42,323 bases of DNA, taken from positions 1 to 42,323 of the IMG/VR virus record IMGVR_UViG_3300031933_000299; one strand, 5' to 3'. Below are positions 1 through 42,323 of this stretch, in pieces (within the stretch, counting starts at the first letter, position 1; every line of letters starts with the position of its first letter). The notes beneath the pieces are model-generated. The model did no database searches. It saw only the letters and a list, made by a program, of their open reading frames with translations, and was not told the origin of the DNA. A program made the position numbers and the translations under genes. This stretch comes from a virus.

Positions 1-1
1 A

Positions 2-2118
2 ACAGATGCAGCCTCATTATCTAATAGATACTCTCAAATGGTGTTTGCAGAATCCATAAACAAATGGCATGACATTTCATCTAATCTGATAGCTTCTCCT
101 ATAAATTATAATAGAAATAAATGGAGATGATACTACGCACAAGTGAATCTAAAATAGATTATTATGTATACAGCAATTCAGGAGATTTACTTGGATCATT
201 AACAGATAGAAGCTATGCTTGTGGAAGTGGGCATTCTGGTTTTTCTCATATTGCATTTTATGGCGGTAGTATAGGCAGATATGCACAGGTTGATGTATAT
301 GATATTACTATCAGACAATATGCTAATACATCAGTCATAATAACTAATATGACCGATTATTATAAAATAGAAGTTACAAACAACGAAGAAACAGACCTTT
401 CAAATTATCAAATTCAATTAGATTCATCCGATTTAGGTATAGTTACAAACAATGAATCATGGTTATTTACTGATGTGATAGACCCTTATATAAATATTGA
501 ATTGGTTTCACCTGAAAACAATACCTACACATCAAACAATACGCTATCGTTTTCTGCAGATGGTGCTGGCAATTTATCAGCAGTATTATATATTGATTCT
601 AATCAAACGTGGGACGGTTCTATATCATCCGGGATTAACAATATAACGCCTTCTCTCTCACAAGGTTTGCATTCCTGGTATGTAAATGCATCATCTGTAT
701 ATAATGGAAGTACAGCATCCAATATAACAGGAACATGGACTTTTATATACGACACCATAAACCCCACAACAGCTAGCATAGACATTGATCCAGACTATAA
801 CAACATAGCCAATGGCACTATAGTCCAAACTAACATTGAATGGTCTGATACTAACCTAAAAAATGCATCATTCTATGTAGATTATGGCTCCGGTTACTCT
901 CTGGAAGATAGTACTACTTTCTCTGCCTCTACAGAATGGCTCAACACAAGTATAAACACCACAGGCTACACCGGGGAAACTATCTCATGGTATCAGATAG
1001 CCTACGATGAAGCCGGGAACAGCTACACATACAGCGATTCTTTCAACGTGGTTCTGAATGCTCTTAATATCTATGTCTATGATGAAACAACATCTCAATC
1101 TATTCTACCCTCTAATGTAGTGATCTATAACGAGGATATCAGCAAAGAAGCTACAATATCAGAAGTAACAAACATATCAAGCTTAAGTTATGATGGTCTT
1201 TCATCTGATAAATACATAGTAAGAGTTTCAGCAGACGGCTACTACTCAAGACAATCTATTCTCTATGTAGACATAACAAGCTTGTCTGAGCTTGACGTGT
1301 ACCTACCTTCAGAGGGTGAAACTGTAATCTTTGATCAGTTCGCTCTAACAGACAATACAGGCTCATATGATGAAGGCGACTGCATCATAAGATTAGACAA
1401 GCCTTTGGTAGATGGTACTGATACGGTATTCTCATCATATTTTGATTTTGACGGCGTGGCCTCTACTTACCTCATTGCATCAGATCAGTATATTCTCTAT
1501 GTGGAAACACCAGACAGAACCATAAGCTACGGTTGGCTCTCTCCTGACGCTGACGGCGTAATAGATATCATTATCAGTAATACGCCAGTAGGAGAAATAG
1601 AAGAATGGCTTAATTACTCACTCACTCACGATGACTACGGAGTAATTTCATTCTCTTATGAATCCAATTTAGCAATAGATAATGTAGACTTCTGGGTAAA
1701 TGCCACCAATGGCACAAATCTATACTCTGCATCCAGTGGCTCAGATATTGGCAGCTTCACTTATACAGGCTCAAACGACAGTACTTATTATGCCAGCTTC
1801 TCAGCTCTCAGTGAATCCGGTAAAACAATATCTATTACAAGAGTAATCACATTCACAGGTAGCGGCGTTCAGGATGACATGTTAAACTTCCTTCCTGAAG
1901 ATGCACCCGACTGGCTCTATAATCTCATTGGCGGCTCTATCGTTGTAATCTCTGTTCTTATGTTCGGTCAGTTCAGAATGGACGTAGGCTGCGTAATAGG
2001 CGCATCCTTGGCGGGTCTGTTCTGGTATTGGGGATTGCTGCAAATAGAAGGTATAGTAGTAGCTGTAGGTGCCATTATCGCAGTAGCTGCGGTTCTGAAT
2101 CGCTCCCGGAGGTCCTGA
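2..2118 (+). pseudogene. Surface-exposed beta-rich protein with C-terminal membrane anchor; 5' truncated and frame-broken
   Basis: The intact reading frame starts at ATG 121 (665 aa) directly after an in-frame TAA. The frame beginning at base 2 is open to about 128, and its translation ends in a motif (..NYNRNKWR) that runs naturally into the downstream frame (..MEMILRTSESK..), as in a LamG/concanavalin-type sandwich. I therefore read one gene that enters from the left edge and is broken by a single-base frameshift near 118-124. The downstream part has Ig/fibronectin-like beta repeats rich in N-x-S/T sequons, and two closely spaced hydrophobic segments in the last 70 residues ending in a basic tail (LNRSRRS). 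It is probably a cell-surface or envelope spike-like protein. The codons for the terminal RRS also form the GGAGGT ribosome binding site of the next gene. The function is inferred from architecture only. Confidence 0.6.
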
Positions 2119-2119
2119 C

Positions 2120-2491
2120 ATGGTATCATTTAAATCTGTAATAACTGCTCTATTGTTGATCCAGATTAGTATAGGTGTCATTAACATGACTGGAATATTC
2201 ACAGTCCAGGAAGATGTGAATGTAATTGACAGCGGTCAAATTGCTAATATTACAGATTCCCTTAACTCAAGTGCAAATAAGGACAGTAGCGCTCTCGATT
2301 ATTTCGCAACATTAGGTTCATTCGCATATAATGGTCTCAGATTGGCAATGCAGTTTTTCTGGATGGCTATAACCGGAGTTCCCACGATCTTAAAATTATT
2401 CCTTATGCCTGATGGACTTGCAGATCTGATAGGTTATGCAGTTGAAGTGCTCTTAGTGCTCGGAATAGTCTATAAATTATTCACGAGGTGA
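2120..2491 (+). CDS. Small membrane protein (123 aa) downstream of surface protein
   Basis: ATG 2120 lies 8 nt after GGAGGT, which is embedded in the end of the previous gene, so the two are translationally coupled. Residues 1-25 form a signal-anchor-like hydrophobic stretch. A polar, Asn/Ser-rich segment follows, and then about 50 hydrophobic residues (two possible helices) to a short basic end. I do not recognise a family. The position directly after a membrane-anchored surface protein suggests a partner in the same envelope complex or a structural membrane protein of a virus or element. Confidence 0.65.
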   Translation: MVSFKSVITALLLIQISIGVINMTGIFTVQEDVNVIDSGQIANITDSLNSSANKDSSALDYFATLGSFAYNGLRLAMQFFWMAITGVPTILKLFLMPDGLADLIGYAVEVLLVLGIVYKLFTR

Positions 2492-2496
2492 TATGA

Positions 2497-2853
2497 ATGG
2501 CTAACATAACACAGATAGACCCGGAAGCGTTCAATATCACCGCTTACCCCAGTATTATGAAATTCACTAACCTATCCAGCTATGATGCAATTTTCACACC
2601 TTTTACTGATATCTGGATAGGACAGGTTTATGGTCAATGGTGGTGGGTTCTTGTTTTGTTCGTTACGGTAGGAACAACCCTTGTTAAATCAAAAGAAATA
2701 TTCCCTACTGCCTTTGTTCTGTTAATAGTATCCTCAATACTCTCTCAGGCTGTACCTCCTGAGATTCAAACAATAATGTATCTGCTCATGGTATTGGGAT
2801 TCTTCGGAGCTTTGTATGGATGGTTTGAAGATCGTAACGGAGGAATGTACTGA
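2497..2853 (+). CDS. Small multi-pass membrane protein (118 aa)
   Basis: The start at 2497 follows GAGGTGATATGA. The first 40 residues are soluble-looking. Three hydrophobic helices follow (about residues 45-65, 70-88 and 92-108), then a short polar tail. It is spaced 5 nt from the previous gene and overlaps the next start (TGATG), so it belongs to one operon. No family recognised. Confidence 0.65.
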   Translation: MANITQIDPEAFNITAYPSIMKFTNLSSYDAIFTPFTDIWIGQVYGQWWWVLVLFVTVGTTLVKSKEIFPTAFVLLIVSSILSQAVPPEIQTIMYLLMVLGFFGALYGWFEDRNGGMY

Positions 2854-3014
2854 TGTTTGTAATTGATGATAGAGGCAAAGCCCGAAAAATAAGTGATATT
2901 GAAGATATAGAAAAAATCAACAAAAAGACAATGAGAGTCTTTGATGATGACGGCAAGATGTTAGCCAGGAAGATGTCTAAAAGTGCATTAAAAGCTAAAT
3001 TTGGAGGCAGATAA
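2853..3014 (+). CDS. Small basic protein (53 aa)
   Basis: The ATG at 2853 overlaps the preceding stop, and the gene ends immediately before the ATG at 3015. The protein is charged and lysine-rich, with no Cys and no membrane segment. It carries two similar short motifs (DDRGKARK near the start and DDDGKMLARK near residue 31), which suggests a small internal repeat. The tight packing on both sides is the main evidence that it is real. Confidence 0.6.
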   Translation: MFVIDDRGKARKISDIEDIEKINKKTMRVFDDDGKMLARKMSKSALKAKFGGR

Positions 3015-3404
3015 ATGAAGTTCTTGAAAAGAAAATATGCTGAGTTCAAAGAGGACAAAGCAAAGGAGAAAGCAATAGACAAGAAGATCAAGCAAGTCCA
3101 GGAAGGCCAGAAGATAGCAGCAGAAAAAAAGAATCTTATAAGCATGGGTCTATCTGATGATGAAGCAGAATTTAAGGCTCGCAAGAATATGAAGAAGGCT
3201 AACCGCAAAGAAAAGATTGATTCCTTGGTATCTGGAGTTGGTGGTGCTGTTGATGCTCTCTCTATGGATATGGGTATAGATTCAGATCTTCCAGCAAAAA
3301 AGAAAAGCTCAGGCTCAAAGAAGAAATCCAAACCCAAAAAAAAGAAAGGTAAAGGTGGAGGCGGTAATCCCTTGAATATGGATTTGCCGGGATTTAAGTT
3401 ATAA
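3015..3404 (+). CDS. Lysine-rich coiled-coil protein (129 aa)
   Basis: The protein is strongly basic. Residues 1-75 are predicted coiled coil (alternating K/E/A). The C-terminal 35 residues are a Lys/Gly/Ser-rich tail typical of nucleic-acid binding. It is the last gene of the left plus-strand cluster and converges on the minus-strand AN1 gene. A nucleic-acid-condensing or internal virion protein is possible, but this is inference. Confidence 0.6.
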   Translation: MKFLKRKYAEFKEDKAKEKAIDKKIKQVQEGQKIAAEKKNLISMGLSDDEAEFKARKNMKKANRKEKIDSLVSGVGGAVDALSMDMGIDSDLPAKKKSSGSKKKSKPKKKKGKGGGGNPLNMDLPGFKL

Positions 3405-3409
3405 TTAGG

Positions 3410-3802
3410 TTATGTATTTGATGTAAAATATTCTGTCATCACTTTTAATGAGTATATAATAATTACAAAAATCATTATGTAGATATATATCTCAATTTCT
3501 TTTTTATTTATAATGGGTTTCTTTATTCTTTCTGCTTTGCTGTTATCTATAATGTCTGGAGTAATATGCGTGGTAGTTCTGGAGTAATTTGTGTATTTGC
3601 TGTAGGGTTTCTTTATTGGTATTCTGGCACAATTATGAGTTTCAGGTAAACGATGTTTTGAACAGAAAGTTCCACCACAGCCCCGGCATGTAAAAGGAAG
3701 CGGCAAAGTTTTTGATTTTATTCTTTTATTGCCTCCGGTTTCATAAGAATAGGTATCTCCTCCTATCTCCTCTCCGCAAAAATCACATTTCATTTTTACC
3801 AC
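3410..3802 (-). CDS. AN1-type zinc finger protein with C-terminal transmembrane helix
   Basis: The spacing of cysteines and histidines (CDFC near residues 6-9, then C-x2-C-x4-C-x2-H-x5-H-x-C over about residues 39-58) matches the AN1 zinc finger. A basic linker follows, and one hydrophobic helix lies near the C-terminus (about residues 108-122). Archaeal AN1 proteins with membrane segments occur in many euryarchaeal chromosomes, so this may be a captured host gene or flanking host DNA. The start could also be the second Met, three codons later. An AT-rich TATA-like stretch lies just upstream on the minus strand. Confidence 0.65.
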   Translation of the reverse strand: MVKMKCDFCGEEIGGDTYSYETGGNKRIKSKTLPLPFTCRGCGGTFCSKHRLPETHNCARIPIKKPYSKYTNYSRTTTHITPDIIDNSKAERIKKPIINKKEIEIYIYIMIFVIIIYSLKVMTEYFTSNT

Positions 3803-3865
3803 TGTACACTATAATATTTTATACAATGGTTATTAATAATCATTAATAGCTTTTTTGCTATGTCT

Positions 3866-4050
3866 TTAAAGCACTTTGGGAGCACACTTCAAATACATCT
3901 TTTTTGCTTCAGGTGGCTTAATTCTATTATACAACTCCTCTGCATCCCTCGGAGCATCTCCTCTTATCCATCTGCGAAAATCTTTAGGCATTCCGTTTTG
4001 CCTTGCATGAGTGGTCCAGCAATGCCGGAAACAATCATGGTTTAAAAAAT
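3866..4050 (-). pseudogene. C-terminal remnant of a second tyrosine integrase
   Basis: Read on the minus strand, this stretch translates to NHDCFRHCWTTHARQNGMPK, then RGDAPRDAEELYNRI and a terminal ..CAPKVL before a stop. The H-x-x-R box with a following RGD..Y..I segment is the layout of the last third of a tyrosine recombinase, and it parallels SHCFRGFLVTH in the complete integrase just upstream. There is no start codon and no catalytic N-terminal half. It is an old integrase end left behind, possibly by successive insertion at the same site. Confidence 0.6.
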
Positions 4051-4059
4051 CAAAATAAG

Positions 4060-4965
4060 TTAATAATCAATCAGTCGAGGAACACTCCTTAAGTAATCCT
4101 TCCTGACAAGTTCCATGTCTACAGCGAGATAATGTCCTGTCCAGACCTTATCATTAAGGGAGTGGCCTAAAAGTGTCTTAATGTGCTCCTCCTTCATTCC
4201 TGCGCGCCGTAAATGGGTTACCAGAAAGCCACGGAAGCAATGACTTGTAAGCTGTGCTTCAAGTGGTCCTATAGGGTCATGTAGCCCGATGGGTTCCGCA
4301 TATGCCTGAATGAATTGGTTAATATAATCTTTGTGAACTCTGCCGCCAGTGTCAGAAATCCATAAGTAGCCTGTTTTACACTTCCCCAGTCGCGCGCGGG
4401 CATTCCTCCATGCAAGGTACTTTTCAAGAACTACGTGCAATTCATCATCTATGAATCTGATACGGTTCTTTGCTCGTTTCTTCCTGACAATTACAATCGT
4501 GTCTCTGGTAAGGTCAATGTCTTCCGGCTTTAGCTCTAACAGTTCTGACCTTCTGATACCTGTCTTTGCAAGGATCATAACTATGGCAATTTCCCGGATA
4601 AAATCAAGTGAGTTAATTAATTGTCTGGCCTGATCAATTGTCAGTACTTGCCTGCGGTCTGAATCGCATGATGTGTCAAGATATCTTTTTCTAAATCCTG
4701 ATACTGGATTCTTATCAGTGACCTGTTTGTAAATTAGAAATTCATAAAAAGACGAGATAGCAGAAAAGTTAGATTTCAGGGTGCTTACTTTTAATTCCCT
4801 CTCCAGTAAATGCCCTAAGTAGTATTCTAAATCTTCATAGGTTACGTTTTCAGGTTCTGGATTATGCTCTAAAAACTCTTTTACATTGCATGAATAGCTG
4901 CGTATTGTCCTGTGGGTGCGTCTACGCAATGCTAAATCATTCTCAAATTTCTTAAGTATCTCCAC
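4060..4965 (-). CDS. int: Tyrosine recombinase / integrase
   Basis: A 301-aa member of the phage integrase/XerC-D family, catalysing site-specific integration and excision. An N-terminal SAM-like core-binding domain covers about residues 1-85. In the catalytic domain the visible residues are R138 (TGIRRSELL), H242 and R245 (SHCFRG), H268 (LLGH) and the nucleophile Y279 (GHYLAVD). K163 lies in the beta-hairpin region. The set is complete, so the enzyme should be active. It points leftward, with the inverted-repeat region 5089-5200 just upstream of its start, the usual place for an attachment site. The function is well supported; the identity of the attachment site is not. Confidence 0.9.
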   Translation of the reverse strand: MEILKKFENDLALRRRTHRTIRSYSCNVKEFLEHNPEPENVTYEDLEYYLGHLLERELKVSTLKSNFSAISSFYEFLIYKQVTDKNPVSGFRKRYLDTSCDSDRRQVLTIDQARQLINSLDFIREIAIVMILAKTGIRRSELLELKPEDIDLTRDTIVIVRKKRAKNRIRFIDDELHVVLEKYLAWRNARARLGKCKTGYLWISDTGGRVHKDYINQFIQAYAEPIGLHDPIGPLEAQLTSHCFRGFLVTHLRRAGMKEEHIKTLLGHSLNDKVWTGHYLAVDMELVRKDYLRSVPRLIDY

Positions 4966-5088
4966 GTTTTAATCACCTTTTTTTAAGTGTTGCGGCTATA
5001 TGGAGCTTTACATGATTAATATATTATGAAAGAGTGTTTTTAAAAACAATAGGCTATGGCTTTAATCTTTGGAAAAACAAGAAGAAAA

Positions 5089-5155
5089 GGGTGAATGCGC
5101 CGACCGGGATTAGTTCCTCAATTTGAGGTTCCAATCCCGTGGCCTTCATTCACCC
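5089..5155. repeat. Nested inverted repeat upstream of int, possible attachment site
   Basis: The outer arms GGGTGAATG (5089-5097) and CATTCACCC (5147-5155) pair over 9 bp. The inner arms GGGATT (5106-5111) and AATCCC (5133-5138) pair, and the centre CCTCAATTTGAGG (5116-5128) is a 6-bp hairpin. On the minus strand, AATCCCGGTCGGCGC resembles the 3' end of an archaeal tRNA (T-arm and acceptor), a common integration target. A transcription terminator or an attachment site are both possible. Confidence 0.5.
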
Positions 5156-5168
5156 GATGATAACAAAG

Positions 5169-5198
5169 AAACCGTGGGATTAAGCAGAATCACGGTTT
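5169..5198. repeat. Hairpin AAACCGTG/CACGGTTT in the int upstream region
   Basis: An eight-base-pair inverted repeat (5169-5176 with 5191-5198), with inner ATT/AAT pairing possible. It lies 14 bp from the larger nested repeat. Together they fill the non-coding stretch 4966-5410, which otherwise holds only AT-rich sequence and a promoter. It could be an integrase arm site or a terminator. Confidence 0.4.
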
Positions 5199-5298
5199 TA
5201 ACCTGTTGGCGCAGGCTGCCACATCAGGACAATTAAGTATTGTATTTCGTAGTATTTTAATCTTTTTTCTGATGCTTATATAAATGTCATATATACAG

Positions 5299-5384
5299 TT
5301 CGTAAAAACACGAACAAACAGTACAATAAACTTTATATATCTTTCTTTCTAATCTTAGTTCAGTAAGAATTTGGCGATTCTTAC
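5299..5384 (+). promoter_or_regulatory. Promoter with TATA box, upstream palindrome and hairpin at the predicted transcript start
   Basis: A TATA box (TTTATATA, 5332-5339) predicts a start near 5362. The first bases of that transcript form the hairpin GTAAGAAT-TTGGCG-ATTCTTAC (5363-5384). Upstream of the TATA box, the palindrome TTCGT..ACGAA (5299-5314) sits where a regulator could bind. It would drive the rightward cluster beginning at 5411. Confidence 0.5.
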
Positions 5385-5410
5385 GGACAAAATCAACGAA
5401 GGATGAAGCA

Positions 5411-5617
5411 ATGAAAGACTTAATAACAAGTAGCGGAAGCTCTATTTTAAAAGCTTGCACAGAAGAAACACACTGTAAAAGGTGTAATAATCTATTCTCA
5501 ATCCAATCCCTACACCAGGGATATTGTTTTACCTGCTCAGTCGAGAACTTCAAAAAAGAGCAGCTTGCAAAATTAGGATTTGACTATATTTTACCAATAC
5601 TTGCAACGGAGGCCTAA
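5411..5617 (+). CDS. Small zinc-binding protein (68 aa)
   Basis: A CKRC...CFTC arrangement (about residues 23-26 and 41-44) forms a treble-clef or ribbon-like zinc site. It is the first gene after the promoter at 5332. GGATGAAGCA precedes the ATG. The gene ends 3 nt before the next ATG, whose GGAGG site lies within its last codons. No specific family recognised; a regulatory role is likely for such miniproteins. Confidence 0.6.
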   Translation: MKDLITSSGSSILKACTEETHCKRCNNLFSIQSLHQGYCFTCSVENFKKEQLAKLGFDYILPILATEA

Positions 5618-5620
5618 ACA

Positions 5621-5821
5621 ATGTCCTCCACACTTACCAATGATGAAGCGGACTCTATTTCTCCATGTACCATCACTCACTCCACAGGGTCCGCAAACAC
5701 TTCCCTTGAAAACAGCGCCTTTGAATCTCTCGGCTCCCAAAGGGCAAGAGATGCAGCCAGAGTAAGAGCAAGGCGCGTATTTTCACAATCAGGCCATACA
5801 GGGGGCCTAAACAATGAATGA
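5621..5821 (+). CDS. Hypothetical protein (66 aa), Ser/Thr- and Arg-rich
   Basis: The start at 5621 is preceded by GGAGGCCTAAACA, nearly identical to the leader of the next gene (GGGGGCCTAAACA). The protein is polar, with a Ser/Thr-rich N-terminal half and an Arg-rich segment (residues 45-55) that could contact nucleic acid. It overlaps the next start by 8 nt. No family recognised. Confidence 0.5.
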   Translation: MSSTLTNDEADSISPCTITHSTGSANTSLENSAFESLGSQRARDAARVRARRVFSQSGHTGGLNNE

Positions 5822-6059
5822 TATCTTTCATTATCCTGAAGAACTCGAAAGATGGCGCAAGCATAACAATCACTGTAAAAAAGTATCTTCTGCAGTTCGT
5901 AAAAGTGGCAATCAGCACAATCTCACATCAGAAAAAAGAAAGCAACAGGCCATTACACTATATATTAAACATGGTTCATTAGGTCACGTTTGCAGCACCT
6001 TACGTATGGGTCGTAACACCCTTGTTAATATTCTTAAGGAGGCTGGAGTCTATGAGTAA
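5814..6059 (+). CDS. Helix-turn-helix protein (81 aa)
   Basis: The C-terminal half reads as a helix-turn-helix (QQAITLYIKHGSLGHVCSTL followed by RMGRNTLVNILKEAGV), like the DNA-binding end of resolvase or terminase-small-subunit type proteins. The N-terminus is basic and hydrophilic. The leader GGGGGCCTAAACAATG matches that of the preceding gene. A transcriptional regulator is the simplest reading. Confidence 0.6.
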   Translation: MNDIFHYPEELERWRKHNNHCKKVSSAVRKSGNQHNLTSEKRKQQAITLYIKHGSLGHVCSTLRMGRNTLVNILKEAGVYE

Positions 6060-6318
6060 AACATGCGGCTCCTGTGCTCATGCCAAAGATCATGAAGAAA
6101 AAAGAGAGATTCTGCGTCATTGGTGCACTAATAAAAATCAATGGATGCTCTCAGACTGTAAACGCTGCACAGAAGGCATAGACGAATTAATGCATGTTCC
6201 TCACTGCTTACTCTGTACTCATGATAATTCAGGCTGTCTGGTATGTAAAGCAGGAGTTCTCAGAGTTCATACAGACGATGGCATTAAGGCACCTAAGAAC
6301 TGCTCTCGCTATAACTAA
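6052..6318 (+). CDS. Cysteine-rich zinc protein (88 aa)
   Basis: The start at 6052 is chosen because AAGGAGG ends 9 nt upstream; earlier in-frame starts lack a site. About ten cysteines occur in pairs (CGSC, CKRC, CLLC, CLVC), which suggests at least two zinc sites. It overlaps the previous stop and is followed 9 nt later by the DUF7845-like gene. The function is unknown. Confidence 0.6.
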   Translation: MSKTCGSCAHAKDHEEKREILRHWCTNKNQWMLSDCKRCTEGIDELMHVPHCLLCTHDNSGCLVCKAGVLRVHTDDGIKAPKNCSRYN

Positions 6319-6327
6319 GGTGCTCCA

Positions 6328-7794
6328 ATGGCTGATAAGTTCAAATTCGCCGAGCCTGTTACGCATGAGTTTGGTGCATTTTTCCTCTATAAAGAGCTGG
6401 ATCTATATAATTCAGTAATCAACTACTTCATGCACTCTGTAGATGATCCATATAACCACTATCTTACACTCAGCACTCGAAGGTTTAAATTCTTCTCAAA
6501 ACCCGGAGGACTAAAGAACCCAAAGACCGGGAAAATAGCATTTGAGTATATACTTACATGGAAAGATGCATTCGGAGCAAGTAAATGCACATTCACAATT
6601 AAGCCGCTCTTCGGAGCCGGCACCAAAACAAAAACAGGCAAAACCCTGAACCTACCAACAGTAGGCACTCAGATACAGGTTCAATCCAGTTACATAGAAC
6701 TCGATGAGCTACTAACTCTGTTTGAATCTTTCATGGATCAGATAGATGCTGCAAGGTTTGTCTATTCTCTTGACCGTAACAATTCTAAAATATACCAGAT
6801 GGCCCGGCACGTCAGGTATCATGAATCCTATGAGAACACAGTAGCCGGAATGCTCCAAAAAATAGAGCAGGAATCTTCCACCTTAGGAGATGTAAATCTA
6901 ACCAAACAAATGGACTCCGGCAAATACTACATGTACTATCTCTCAAACCCGGACTTCAAAGTATGTAATATTAATACAAAATTCAGTCACTCAGTAAAAA
7001 CATACAGAATCAAGAACTATAAAGAGCGCACTTCTGCAGACCCTCTCAGACATCCAAAGCTCGAAGTATTCTTGCATTCAGATGATAACAACCCTTCAAT
7101 TAATCAGTATCTCGAACTCAAAAGGGATTTAGACGACTTACTTATCAAACTATTAAGCTTTGTACAACCGATTGAATATGTTACAGACGAATACTTTGAC
7201 GGAGAAAGAGTCTTTGAATACAGAAACAAGCTCCCAATATGGGACTATGAAAACCTTCCAAACCCAGACATAGACGGTTTTGATCTCTGGCACCATCCTG
7301 AGAAAACATTATCCGTACTTGCCTACATTGCCACACAGTCAGAAGGCTGTACGGAGTTCAGGCAAATATCAGAAGCTCTTACTATTCCTATTCGTTCATT
7401 ATGGCGTTATATCAATCACTGGAAATGTGAGGGTGTATTAGATACAAAGCGCAAAGAATGCACCTATGTATTTTTCAAATCTAAGAGCCTCTGGCAATCT
7501 ATCAAAGAACCTATTCTACAGGTTTGCTCATTCCTAAAAATCAACTTTAAGAGGGTCTGGGGTCAGACGTTCATAGATTCTGGTGTAATCCGTAATTTCA
7601 GAGAACGCCGTAAAAAGAACTTGAAACCTCACAAAGTAACTGGCGATGATAAAAGAGAATTAGTTGTCGTTGACGATGCCAGGAAAGCAAACGCTCTTAG
7701 GAAGGAACTGAGGGAAGAGGGAGTATCACATTTATTCAAAATTGGGATAGCCTCCACAAAATCAAACATGCGGTATAGTCGGGTAATCAATTAG
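6328..7794 (+). CDS. DUF7845-like protein with winged-helix domain (488 aa)
   Basis: The layout matches what I recall of the haloarchaeal DUF7845 family. It has an N-terminal VTHEFGAFFLYKELDLY segment, a central HSVKTYRIKNYKERTSADP / HPKLEVF block (residues about 220-250), then DYFD near 290, and a C-terminal winged helix (about residues 325-375) for DNA binding. A basic tail follows. Family members occur on archaeal proviruses and plasmids, and the function is not established; a role in replication or regulation is plausible. It is the largest gene of the left arm and follows a run of zinc and HTH miniproteins. AAGGTG precedes the start. Confidence 0.65.
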   Translation: MADKFKFAEPVTHEFGAFFLYKELDLYNSVINYFMHSVDDPYNHYLTLSTRRFKFFSKPGGLKNPKTGKIAFEYILTWKDAFGASKCTFTIKPLFGAGTKTKTGKTLNLPTVGTQIQVQSSYIELDELLTLFESFMDQIDAARFVYSLDRNNSKIYQMARHVRYHESYENTVAGMLQKIEQESSTLGDVNLTKQMDSGKYYMYYLSNPDFKVCNINTKFSHSVKTYRIKNYKERTSADPLRHPKLEVFLHSDDNNPSINQYLELKRDLDDLLIKLLSFVQPIEYVTDEYFDGERVFEYRNKLPIWDYENLPNPDIDGFDLWHHPEKTLSVLAYIATQSEGCTEFRQISEALTIPIRSLWRYINHWKCEGVLDTKRKECTYVFFKSKSLWQSIKEPILQVCSFLKINFKRVWGQTFIDSGVIRNFRERRKKNLKPHKVTGDDKRELVVVDDARKANALRKELREEGVSHLFKIGIASTKSNMRYSRVIN

Positions 7795-7818
7795 CGTAAG
7801 CTATGGAGAAATGAAACA

Positions 7819-7905
7819 ATGAAAGAAAATAGAAAACAGGCATTCGTTGCAAGATTGAAAGTAAGACGTGAAATGAAGAAAGGAAAGGATTCCAAGAACC
7901 CATAG
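7819..7905 (+). CDS. Short basic peptide (28 aa)
   Basis: ATG 7819 follows GGAG by 10 nt. The product is Lys/Arg-rich. Its stop codon lies inside the conserved leader of the next gene (CCCATAG..), as with other genes of this array. Small size limits confidence. Confidence 0.4.
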   Translation: MKENRKQAFVARLKVRREMKKGKDSKNP

Positions 7906-7916
7906 ATAAGGAAGTG
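7899..7916 (+). repeat. Leader repeat copy 1
   Basis: CCCATAGATAAGGAAGTG, a variant of the shared intergenic leader. It ends 10 nt before ATG 7926. The AGGAAGTG part is a ribosome binding site; the conserved CCCATA part lies upstream of it. Confidence 0.7.
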
Positions 7917-7925
7917 ATTAATAAA

Positions 7926-8129
7926 ATGCCAATCGGAGAAATGACAGATTATAGGGGATGTGGTTTCGAAACTGACCACAAAGATGGGAGTAAGTTTTGG
8001 ACTACTTACATCTACAACAGGGTTGCCCCCTACGAGTATGAACTACTAACAATATTACAGTTCCTAGGTGAACCAACACTAGAGAGAATCCAGAAAAATA
8101 TAGACCAAGAGGTTTATGGCGAGTGGTGA
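7926..8129 (+). CDS. Hypothetical protein (67 aa)
   Basis: The start at 7926 is chosen because the leader repeat supplies AGGAAGTG at the right distance; GTG 7914 lies inside that site. The protein is acidic and aromatic-rich, with no cysteine pairs beyond a single Cys. No family recognised. Confidence 0.55.
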   Translation: MPIGEMTDYRGCGFETDHKDGSKFWTTYIYNRVAPYEYELLTILQFLGEPTLERIQKNIDQEVYGEW

Positions 8130-8174
8130 AACTGCCAAATAGAGGAAGTATGAACAATGGATAGATACAAACTA

Positions 8175-8192
8175 CCCATAGAAAAGGAAGTG
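8175..8192 (+). repeat. Leader repeat copy 2
   Basis: CCCATAGAAAAGGAAGTG, 5 nt before ATG 8198. A more degenerate copy (GCCAAATAGAGGAAGT) lies at 8134-8149. Confidence 0.7.
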
Positions 8193-8197
8193 AAGAG

Positions 8198-8527
8198 ATG
8201 AGTTTCAAACGAGGCCGGGATATTAAGGAAGCAAATCGCAGAATATCAGGTTTAATGAAGAGTATCAAAGAAGTGGAATCTCAAAATATTGAGATCAAAG
8301 AAAGAATTGCAGACAACAACGCCCAGATCTACTCTTTGCAGGACAATGTTTCTGAATTGCGTATTGAAAATGCTGCATATGAGGAATCAATCGAAGATAA
8401 TAATGAATGGATCGAGGAAGCAAAGACTGAGATTAACCAGTTAAAAAATATGTTTGAAGGTGTAGAGATAAGGGCATGTGATAAGCCACGACCTGACAGT
8501 GAGAAGCGGCTTACAGCATTCACATAA
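8198..8527 (+). CDS. Coiled-coil protein (109 aa)
   Basis: Almost the entire length from residue 15 to 90 is heptad-like, rich in E, I, N and K, with no transmembrane segment. The N-terminus is basic. The stop is followed directly by the next leader repeat at 8528. It is probably a structural or partner-binding small protein; no family recognised. It is the last gene before the 55-bp junction. Confidence 0.6.
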   Translation: MSFKRGRDIKEANRRISGLMKSIKEVESQNIEIKERIADNNAQIYSLQDNVSELRIENAAYEESIEDNNEWIEEAKTEINQLKNMFEGVEIRACDKPRPDSEKRLTAFT

Positions 8528-8582
8528 CCCATAATAAAGGAAGTGGAACGATGGAAGATGAAGATTTTATCATGGAAGAACC
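8528..8582 (+). repeat. 55-bp direct repeat, internal copy (assembly or circle junction)
   Basis: Identical over exactly 55 bases to the window end (42269-42323), with different bases immediately upstream of each copy. It contains a leader repeat (CCCATAATAAAGGAAGTG, 8528-8545) and the first codons of the gene at 8551. Joining the copies closes 8528-42268 into a circle. Confidence 0.95.
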
Positions 8583-26483: not shown

Positions 26484-26833
26484 TTACATAAATTCCTCGA
26501 ATTTCTCCGGATGCTTCTTGACATATTCGGACAGGACCTTCAGCATCTGTTGTTCATCGTCTTCTACTTCAAGAGCTGCTTCTGTTGTCAGGGCCATACT
26601 GCAGGATGAACAGTACTTTGCAGTAGGTCCATTCATGGTATTGCAGCGCGGACACTTTCTCGGCAACAGGTCGGATGCCGTTTCTTCTTTTTCCCTGAGG
26701 CCATAGTGTTCCAATAAGACATTGTGGGAATACCTTCCTCCTGCATTATCTCCTCCGCTTCCCGCTTTAGATTCGGGCTTATCGAAACCCCGATCTTCTC
26801 TTTCTTTGTATGCTGCATAACAGGTAGTATCAT
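26484..26833 (-). pseudogene. Leftward ribbon-helix-helix regulator with C-terminal zinc ribbon; reading frame interrupted
   Basis: The first frame (from 26833 or, better, 26818) encodes a ribbon-helix-helix start: strand KIGVSIS, helix PNLKREAEEIMQEEGI. At about 26720 the sense continues in the -1 frame: LLEHYGLREKEETASDLLPRKCPRC..., with CPRC/CSSC zinc ribbon and a helical tail to 26484. Joined, they give a normal protein of about 110 aa. Either a one-base error or mutation broke the gene, a -1 frameshift is used, or the zinc ribbon is translated alone (GGAGGAAGGT lies upstream of a TTG). It faces the operator region and its rightward counterpart. Confidence 0.6.
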
Positions 26834-26922
26834 GGTATAACTATTTAAGGCTGGTTTTAACTATAGTTAAACGTTGGTTTAACTATGGTTAACTATTTAT
26901 ATTGGTATAACCATAGTCATAC
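26832..26922. promoter_or_regulatory. Divergent promoter-operator region with four related sites
   Basis: Sites: GGTATAACTATTTAAGG (26834), GGTTTTAACTATAGTTAAAC (26853), GGTTTAACTATGGTTAAC (26876) and GGTATAACCATAGTCATAC (26904). The second holds the perfect 16-bp palindrome TTTAACTATAGTTAAA (26856-26871). TATA-like boxes for both directions lie within or beside the sites (TATTTATA 26894-26901 for rightward, TATTTAA 26842-26848 for leftward), so bound protein would block both promoters. Confidence 0.7.
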
Positions 26923-26934
26923 TTAGGTCATATC

Positions 26935-27171
26935 ATGGTATCCAAATTTATAGGCGTGAAAATGCCGGAAAACGAAGTCGCGAGAATTGAGCGCCTTGTT
27001 GATCGGGGTGAGTCGATGAATCTTAGCGATTTCATGAGACAGGCCGCACGCGAAAAACTAGCAATATGTGAAATGGAGGAAGAAAATGAGCAAAGTAAGG
27101 ATAGGCGGAACGGTGTCACCACTTGCATACAAGCAGCTTGTGGTGTCAGGAAGATCGCAGGAGTTGACTGA
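26935..27171 (+). CDS. Rightward ribbon-helix-helix regulator (78 aa)
   Basis: Strand KFIGVKMP, helix NEVARIERLVDRGE, then the MNLSDFMRQAAREKL helix: a textbook ribbon-helix-helix DNA-binding dimer. It is the first gene of the rightward early operon, with a TATA box about 35 nt upstream, so the mRNA has almost no leader. The C-terminal 35 residues overlap the next gene in another frame. It likely competes with the leftward regulator for the shared operators. Confidence 0.75.
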   Translation: MVSKFIGVKMPENEVARIERLVDRGESMNLSDFMRQAAREKLAICEMEEENEQSKDRRNGVTTCIQAACGVRKIAGVD

Positions 27172-27322
27172 GATGTCCCGGACATACAGTGGAAAACTCG
27201 AAGAGCAGATCGAGAAGTACGACCTCAGATACGACGAATCAATGGAGAACGAGTTTGCCGACGACGTTCAAGGATCCGAGGACTACCTGACAACCGTACA
27301 GAGAATCATAGGAGTGATCTGA
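27086..27322 (+). CDS. Hypothetical early protein (78 aa)
   Basis: ATG 27086 has GGAGGAAG upstream; the first 86 nt overlap the regulator gene. The N-terminal segment KVRIGGTVSPLAYKQLVVSG resembles the opening of archaeal ribbon-helix-helix or AbrB-like proteins, followed by an acidic helix. Ends in TGATG overlap with the next gene. Confidence 0.55.
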   Translation: MSKVRIGGTVSPLAYKQLVVSGRSQELTEMSRTYSGKLEEQIEKYDLRYDESMENEFADDVQGSEDYLTTVQRIIGVI

Positions 27323-32726: not shown

Positions 32727-33094
32727 TTCCGGAATCTAACACTATAGCGTCCCGCAATGGCAGAACAATAGAATCCACAATCTGTGACTATCTGGGAATC
32801 ACCCACAACTATAATGACATTGTTGATGCTGAACTCGATGGCCATCCATTTGAGATCAAGTCATGTCAAGAGTATATCGGTGATTCCAGTCACAACAACG
32901 GCAGAAGATCAGGCAGATTTCAACTGAACGAAGAACAGCATCAATATCTCGTTGAGAACAATGGCATTTATGCTTTTGTTGTTCACTCAGACGGTGAAAT
33001 CAAGAGAACTTGTCTTAAAAGGGCTTCTGCAGTGGGTGAGATTGTTGGGCGGTCTTGTGGTAGGACATGGAGAGGGGTGATGGCAAGTGTCTAA
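32723..33094 (+). CDS. Putative PD-(D/E)XK nuclease (123 aa)
   Basis: The order helix with Glu (NGRTIESTICDYLG), then DAELDGHPFEIKSC (D..x..E-x-K at about residues 36-48), then the SGRFQLNEEQHQYL strand-helix is that of PD-(D/E)XK resolvase/restriction-type nucleases. It may act as a Holliday-junction resolvase or as a recombination nuclease for the RecT-like protein. Motif-based; moderate confidence. Confidence 0.6.
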   Translation: MIPESNTIASRNGRTIESTICDYLGITHNYNDIVDAELDGHPFEIKSCQEYIGDSSHNNGRRSGRFQLNEEQHQYLVENNGIYAFVVHSDGEIKRTCLKRASAVGEIVGRSCGRTWRGVMASV

Positions 33095-33833
33095 CTACAA
33101 GGTCATCTACAAACCCAAAGGCAAAGCCGGGGAATACTGCGACGGATATGCAGCCAATCTCTACAGAGGATGTGGTCACAAATGCACCTACTGTTATGCT
33201 CCACGGGTACTCCATATGAAGAGTGATGAGTTCTTCAATGACCCAAAACCACGCAAGGATATCCTTGAAAACCATTTTGCTGACATCGACAAAATGGTTG
33301 CTGAAGGTGATATTCAGGAAGTATTCCTCTGCTTTACATGTGACCCATTGCAGCCGATAGAAGGTACCGAAGAGATTACCGAGAGAGCTATCAGGCACAT
33401 GGAAAAGATGGGTGTCCCGTACAGGATACTCACAAAGGCGGGATATCAACAGGCCAAGGATTATCTTTTGTACTTCATGTCTCCTGATCTGGCAACCATA
33501 GGTTCAACGTTGGTATTCTGCAAGGATAAGCACTCTGAAAGGTTCGAACCGGGTGCTCCAGTGACATCAGACCGGCTTAATCTTCTCTGGCAGGCACACC
33601 GCCTCAAGTTCAAAACATGGGTATCCCTGGAACCTGTCTGGACTCCCACAGATGCAATTGCACTCATAAAACGAACTCATGAATTTGTTGATGAGTTCAG
33701 GATTGGAAAGTTGAATTACCATCCACAGAGCAAGAATGTCGATTGGGTGAAGTTTGCCCGAGAGATATCTGATTTTTGTGATGATCTTGGTGTGAAGTAT
33801 ACGTTGAAGGAAGATTTGAGGAGGTTGCTCTGA
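33087..33833 (+). CDS. Radical SAM protein, spore photoproduct lyase-like family
   Basis: At 248 aa. GTG 33087 has GGGGTGATGG upstream. The 4Fe-4S motif is C29-x3-C33-x2-C36 in RGCGHKCTYCYAPR, followed by the family's FLCFTCDPLQPIE, YRILTKAG and TWVSLEPVWTP segments of the TIM barrel. Members are common in phages and archaea. Repair of DNA photoproducts is known only for the true lyase, so the substrate here is open. It may be involved in base modification or repair. Confidence 0.85.
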   Translation: MSNYKVIYKPKGKAGEYCDGYAANLYRGCGHKCTYCYAPRVLHMKSDEFFNDPKPRKDILENHFADIDKMVAEGDIQEVFLCFTCDPLQPIEGTEEITERAIRHMEKMGVPYRILTKAGYQQAKDYLLYFMSPDLATIGSTLVFCKDKHSERFEPGAPVTSDRLNLLWQAHRLKFKTWVSLEPVWTPTDAIALIKRTHEFVDEFRIGKLNYHPQSKNVDWVKFAREISDFCDDLGVKYTLKEDLRRLL

Positions 33834-42221: not shown

Positions 42222-42275
42222 ATGAACAGAAAACTACGTGAGTGGATAGATCAGAAGTATTCAGAAACCCCATAA
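42222..42275 (+). CDS. Putative 17-aa peptide
   Basis: A frame flanked by leader repeats on both sides; its stop lies inside the following repeat. Positional support only. Confidence 0.35.
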   Translation: MNRKLREWIDQKYSETP

Positions 42276-42323
42276 TAAAGGAAGTGGAACGATGGAAGAT
42301 GAAGATTTTATCATGGAAGAACC
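42269..42323 (+). repeat. 55-bp direct repeat, terminal copy
   Basis: Identical to 8528-8582. It contains a leader repeat and the start (ATG 42292) of a second, truncated copy of the gene at 8551. Confidence 0.95.

Follow-up and report, generated by a model that had tools for sequence, protein, structure and literature searches.

In phage lambda, the cI repressor gene diverges from cro and the early lytic operon over several shared operators, and both heteroimmune swaps and vir-type operator mutants of this region are known. In Salmonella phage P22, the genes for two small ribbon-helix-helix (RHH) proteins, Mnt and Arc, point away from each other across a short region whose operators cover both promoters, so that a cI/cro layout with RHH proteins is already precedented in phage. 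This immI region, with the gene content mnt / arc-ant, is a secondary immunity region that controls ant (PMC8022706, together with general knowledge). Among archaeal viruses, the RHH protein F55 of SSV1 acts on repeated sites over the early promoters and its own, and was described as CI-like, while AvtR of AFV6 (gp29/gp30), also an RHH regulator, protects a stretch of about 100 nt lying between two promoters; one of these serves the neighbour of the AvtR gene, gp30, which is predicted to encode a second RHH protein (PMC5569661).

The locus described here is probably the immunity (lysis-lysogeny) region of a tailed virus of the Methanosarcinales, CI/Cro-like and Mnt/Arc-like, present in the analysed DNA as a deletion derivative. 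Its leftward gene is called RHH-L, and the rightward genes RHH-A and RHH-B. The nearest structural precedent is P22 immI, whose two divergent RHH genes are matched in layout by about eleven relatives, one partner being truncated in the window; the operators are putatively shared. P22 immI, however, lies in the late region and controls the antirepressor gene ant there, whereas here the pair heads the early operon by attP/int; the locus further differs from P22 in its third RHH gene and its archaeal host, and no cI-type region was noticed elsewhere. The likeness to lambda, by sequence only, consists of shared operators, heteroimmune cassettes, and operator mutants. The lambda proteins are of the helix-turn-helix type and CI carries an autocleavage domain, whereas RHH-L (77 aa in provirus G003) is without such a domain, and the RHH proteins of the viruses read are 66-78 aa long and have no peptidase domain. 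SSV1 F55 is likewise an archaeal-virus RHH regulator with repeated promoter sites, but it is a single regulator from a fusellovirus of a crenarchaeon and acts on tandem ATAGATAG sites, and a divergent, opposing RHH pair is not described there. AvtR carries two tandem RHH motifs per chain, belongs to a filamentous virus, and has no reported lysogeny function. A non-exhaustive search of the literature found no account of tailed methanogen viruses with an immunity region built from RHH proteins.

The analysed stretch (the window, G000) is the IMG/VR virus record IMGVR_UViG_3300031933_000299 over its 42,323 bp, and its genes include those for terminase, capsid, tape-measure, RecT-like, and primase/helicase proteins. 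The last 55 bp (42269-42323) are identical to positions 8528-8582; this repeat suggests that the virus is a circle of about 33.7 kb (8528-42268), accompanied in the record by an 8.5-kb side arm (1-8527). This arm encodes a 301-aa integrase, a 488-aa regulator-like protein, and a 665-aa surface-like protein; it resembles an assembly side arm or an insertion variant, and may be another element. The sole integrase match of the record (4060-4965) lies within the arm and outside the likely viral circle, and no integrase match was found in the circular part. A radical-SAM-like protein with the motif GCGHKCTYCYAP is encoded in the early region, at 33087-33833. Judging from related proviruses, the likely hosts are Methanolobus and other Methanosarcinales. 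One contig (C12) of a Methanolobus MAG (G005) matches G003 at 100% over 3.6 kb and then continues into host chemotaxis genes, which places this provirus in the MAG beside those genes.

A sequence-only reading of the window had proposed four GGTWT(T)AACTAT-type sites, one of them a perfect 16-bp palindrome, in a divergent gap of about 100 bp, overlapping both promoters; the sites and the palindrome were recovered. Searching both strands of the whole window gave matches that begin at 26834, 26853, 26876, and 26887, and none outside the 101-bp gap. Site 1 (GGTATAACTAT, 26834-26844, plus strand) overlaps a putative leftward TATA-like box, TTAAATAG (26841-26848, minus strand), which was assigned by reading and with which the element TATAAATAGTC aligns in provirus G076. 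Site 2 (26853-26871) holds the palindrome TTTAACTATAGTTAAA at 26856-26871, one of three perfect 16-bp palindromes in the 42 kb. Sites 3 and 3b (GGTTTAACTAT and GGTTAACTAT, 26876-26897, plus strand) lie just upstream of, and touch, a putative rightward TATA-like box, ATTTATAT (26895-26902, plus strand), also assigned by reading. Site 4, which is inverted (GGTATAACCATAGTC, 26904-26918, minus strand), is located between this box and the start codon, and includes a further inverted element, TAACCATAGTC, at 26908-26918; this 11-mer is exactly kept upstream of RHH-L in G076. The predicted sites overlap or bracket both presumed TATA-like boxes. The gap region is 71% A+T, and the two further 16-bp palindromes in the window would also suit repeats produced by chance in an AT-rich promoter region. 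However, the gap contains 39 pairs of similar 10-mers (at most one mismatch, either strand), whereas 60 dinucleotide-preserving shuffles averaged 2.9 and never exceeded 10, and this excess, the confinement of the four sites to the gap, and the conservation of the 11-mer in G076 already disfavour chance, which we consider highly improbable.

Rightward of the gap, the first gene of the early operon, RHH-A (26935-27171, plus strand), encodes an intact RHH domain (Pfam RHH_1; E = 1.8e-7 in the window and 2.2e-10 in locus L002, from G001), and positional homologues were found at at least 10 loci. A direct search of viral contigs with RHH-A found no relatives, whereas searches with the flanking genes did find them. 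The third RHH gene, RHH-B, lies 3′ of RHH-A and was not mentioned in the sequence-only reading. RHH-B is intact in G001 (L002/L004) and G003 (L006), and is truncated in the window, where a deletion has left an N-terminal fragment, MSKVRIGGTVSPLAYKQL..., at 27086-27150 (plus strand). This fragment reads as one open reading frame with a 49-aa gene (27172-27322, plus strand) that is homologous to a separate 48-aa gene of L005/L006. Genes for RHH-B, a 112-aa zinc-binding protein, RecT, and a primase/helicase follow RHH-A and constitute the early operon; neither deposited phage records nor the first genome scan yielded a match to the 112-aa gene.

The sequence-only reading had paired RHH-A with a leftward RHH gene ending at 26484. 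The rightward member of this pair stands, but the leftward one is not a single gene. Its first 121 bp (26713-26833, minus strand), with in-frame ATG codons at 26833 and 26818, show 76% nucleotide identity by blastn to the intact 90-aa RHH-L of G076, and the encoded N-terminus is 81% identical to that of G076. The family HMM covers only positions 1-35 of 77, corresponding to the strand and helix A of the putative repressor; the homology ends at 26713, and complete helix B is absent. At precisely this position it abuts the tail of a zinc-ribbon tyrosine recombinase (26484-26713, minus strand), which lies in another frame, shows 81% nucleotide identity to the integrase C-termini of G058 and G003, and matches Pfam Zn_Ribbon_1. 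The tail could be recognised because the 381-aa integrase of G003, encoded between the late genes and the switch, has the same zinc-ribbon C-terminus, and because about 100 Methanosarcinales-class genomes match the tail, mostly in frames of about 380-430 aa, with the similarity to the fused query beginning near its residue 28. The possibility of one RHH-zinc-ribbon protein interrupted by a frameshift was ruled out by the intact G076 homologue, in which the RHH frame continues to ...PTMS, while the remainder in the window is the out-of-frame integrase tail. An in-frame RHH-L/integrase-tail fusion of 71 aa, joined at another integrase position, was found in G001; it looks independent of the fusion in the window, and might be a functional chimera.

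RHH-L alone falls short of the Pfam RHH models and is assigned to the RHH proteins by profile match to RHH-A only (hhalign 81%, E = 1.2e-5; A9 HMM, E = 2.6e-5 on one member). Comparison of the RHH-L profile with PDB sequences gave no convincing RHH match, and single-sequence structure predictions were of low confidence (pLDDT about 58), too weak for a fold search.

HMM searches of the fetched loci revealed that RHH-L diverges from RHH-A in about eleven Methanosarcinales viruses or proviruses, with the pair present in G001, G002/G003, G064, G031, G085 (twice), G046, G047, G055, G034, and, more weakly matched, G168. Two of these proviruses, G047 and G085, carry tape-measure and terminase genes, and in them the integrase and RHH-L occupy opposite ends, separated by 29-34 kb. 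Circularisation of such a provirus would bring RHH-L and the integrase side by side in the same direction, and a single deletion could therefore fuse both. In a provirus-like region of G076, intact RHH-L diverges directly from recT without RHH-A, and the two-protein form is not universal on this reading of the relatives. The G076 terminase is 70% identical to that of the window, and G076 was the sole switch-bearing genome matched in a search with the window terminase, which suggests that the switch travels among otherwise different viruses. The late-side relative G004 (L011) carries a different, non-RHH module in place of the switch; a helix-turn-helix-like 89-aa frame and a 283-aa frame occupy this position (L011 6425-7440). 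In G085 (L037), the RHH-L frame is extended at its C-terminus by a TPR-like region (Pfam TPR_1, E = 6.8e-10), which suggests that this repressor has a domain for sensing or for binding a partner. In G003 (L006/L018; 2003-2073 and 3284-3354), the 3′ end of RHH-L has a 71-bp copy, 94% alike, that flanks an hsdR-N-like gene adjoining the provirus end; the repeat is possibly related to the attachment site or to insertion of this gene.

Comparison of the window with G001 revealed replacement of a cassette. The aligned parts of the flanks are 98.4% (left) and 99.2% (right) identical, while between about 26565 and about 27297 the sequence is replaced, with abrupt edges, and RHH-L, RHH-A, RHH-B, and the sites all differ. 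This swap appears heteroimmunity-like. The G001 palindrome, ACTATAGT, has exactly two copies in 31.9 kb, one beside each divergent start codon, and the motif ACTATRGT is common to the window and G001. G003 and G064, whose RHH-L proteins are 74% identical, have TTGCAAYA and CAATAG sites in common, and their dyads, AACAATTGCAATACAATTGTT and AACTATTGCAATACTATAGTT, differ symmetrically; the symmetry is therefore kept. The sequence TAATTATGRCAT is common to G031, G046, G047, and G055. The self-similarity test was not significant for G046, G047, and G055 (26, 13, and 3 of 60 shuffles, respectively), and the sites of these genomes are supported instead by conservation between species. Conservation of the sites in relatives, on which the sequence-only reading had made its proposal depend, was checked, and the sites were kept wherever RHH-L was kept. 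By these comparisons, the operator motif tracks the RHH-L type, being kept with RHH-L and changed when the proteins change. The positions of the DNA-reading strand, which we take, by analogy with Arc and CopG, to be the alternating residues before the SP motif, give RHH-L/RHH-B contact triads of KGT/KGT in G001, LTS/LTS in G003 and G064, SHT/SHT in G031, and KGS/RGT in the window. The matching triads suggest that the Cro-like role belongs to RHH-B and not to RHH-A alone.

A candidate natural operator mutant was found in G002, which, together with G003, comes from IMG records with neighbouring numbers. At the contig level, without reads, the two differ by six substitutions over about 26.8 kb, of which two lie at a contig edge and four in the interior. 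Of the interior substitutions, two affect the perfect dyad AACAATTG-CAATA-CAATTGTT, upstream of RHH-A, one in each arm, at positions that are both conserved between G003 and G064. Beside the mutated dyad, a 65-bp deletion in G002 removes the remaining sites and the RHH-L start, and the number of self-similar site pairs falls from 24 in G003 to 0 in G002; the 151-bp gap makes up 0.6% of the G002/G003 alignment. The left end of G002 is a junction of an integrase tail with another gene. About 2.55 kb of early-region sequence in G003 (near G003 5880-8435) is also missing from G002, the rest being nearly identical, and both genomes contain a long tandem-repeat region in a late gene (about 13.1-14.4 kb in G003), with units about 75-80% alike.

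These variants bear on whether RHH-A and RHH-L might be ordinary autoregulators unrelated to lysogeny, acting in CopG-like copy-number control or as ParD-like antitoxins. The RHH-A family profile does match NikR and ParD-type structures, and autoregulation is frequent among RHH genes. However, no toxin family was found near the window genes, whose neighbours are early viral genes and either an integrase or its tail; moreover, the genes sit at the provirus edge opposite the integrase and head the early operon, the cassette is swapped between otherwise near-identical viruses, and operator-clearing variants are found in nature. Such a role is quite unlikely, and an immunity function is preferred.

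From the anatomy, homologies, junctions, operator statistics, and variant pattern, we infer how binding, repression, and lifestyle would be connected in an immunity region. In intact temperate relatives, the leftward operon would consist of RHH-L, followed by attP and the integrase, and the rightward operon of RHH-A and RHH-B, followed by the early genes, each operon with its own TATA promoter and the two promoters diverging across about 100-150 bp. Dimers of RHH-L would bind several half-site and palindromic operators over both TATA boxes, and would block TBP, TFB, and RNA polymerase at the rightward promoter, keeping the provirus silent. RHH-B, with a DNA-reading strand like that of RHH-L, and RHH-A would serve as the lytic-side regulators of the same region, in a Cro-like manner.

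In the window virus, one deletion would have cost RHH-L its helix B and C-terminus and would also have removed attP and the integrase body; with RHH-B cut by a second deletion, the early operon would be limited only by RHH-A. The view that the locus is a cI/cro layout built from RHH proteins, controlling the early operon of an archaeal virus, is supported in the relatives by the layout, operator tracking, swaps, and operator mutants, but does not carry over to the window itself, where a working two-protein switch is unlikely because the leftward protein is a deletion remnant. A truncated RHH-L of 61-66 aa, or a fusion like that of G001, might still dimerise and repress, and the virus would then be temperate. 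The in-frame fusion in G001, the retention of the operators, both promoters, and the DNA-reading strand of RHH-L in the window and G001, and the other integrase on the window contig (4060-4965) are compatible with this possibility, but RHH dimers need helix B, which is missing in the window frame, the integrase lies outside the likely viral circle, and no integrase match was found in G001, which is complete, with a 127-bp terminal repeat; we consider a working switch unlikely. Neither an intact repressor nor an integrase is present in the viral circle of the window, RHH-L being truncated and the integrase located in the side arm. Since the operators and RHH-A are what remains, the window virus is most likely an obligately lytic derivative, and it and the G001 virus each seem to descend by deletion from a temperate parent and to have become obligately lytic. 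Mycobacteriophage D29, a lytic phage and apparent deletion derivative of a temperate parent (PMC5712189), is analogous, although its regulators and host differ and, unlike in D29, the deletion in the window fuses a repressor remnant to an integrase tail.

More broadly, we lean modestly towards the view that tailed proviruses of the Methanosarcinales share a three-protein, all-RHH immunity system, in which the specificity of the repressor and RHH-B co-varies with the operators, many heteroimmune types are exchanged as cassettes, and virulent escape mutants arise in the operator (G002) or in the repressor and integrase (the window and G001). The choice between dormancy and lysis is poorly known in tailed archaeal viruses, and the described archaeal RHH lysogeny regulator, F55, comes from a spindle-shaped Sulfolobus virus. 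The compact candidate switch described here recurs in methanogen proviruses and comes with built-in controls, in the form of heteroimmune relatives, operator mutants, and repressor deletions, making immunity specificity and the induction of methanogen proviruses directly testable.
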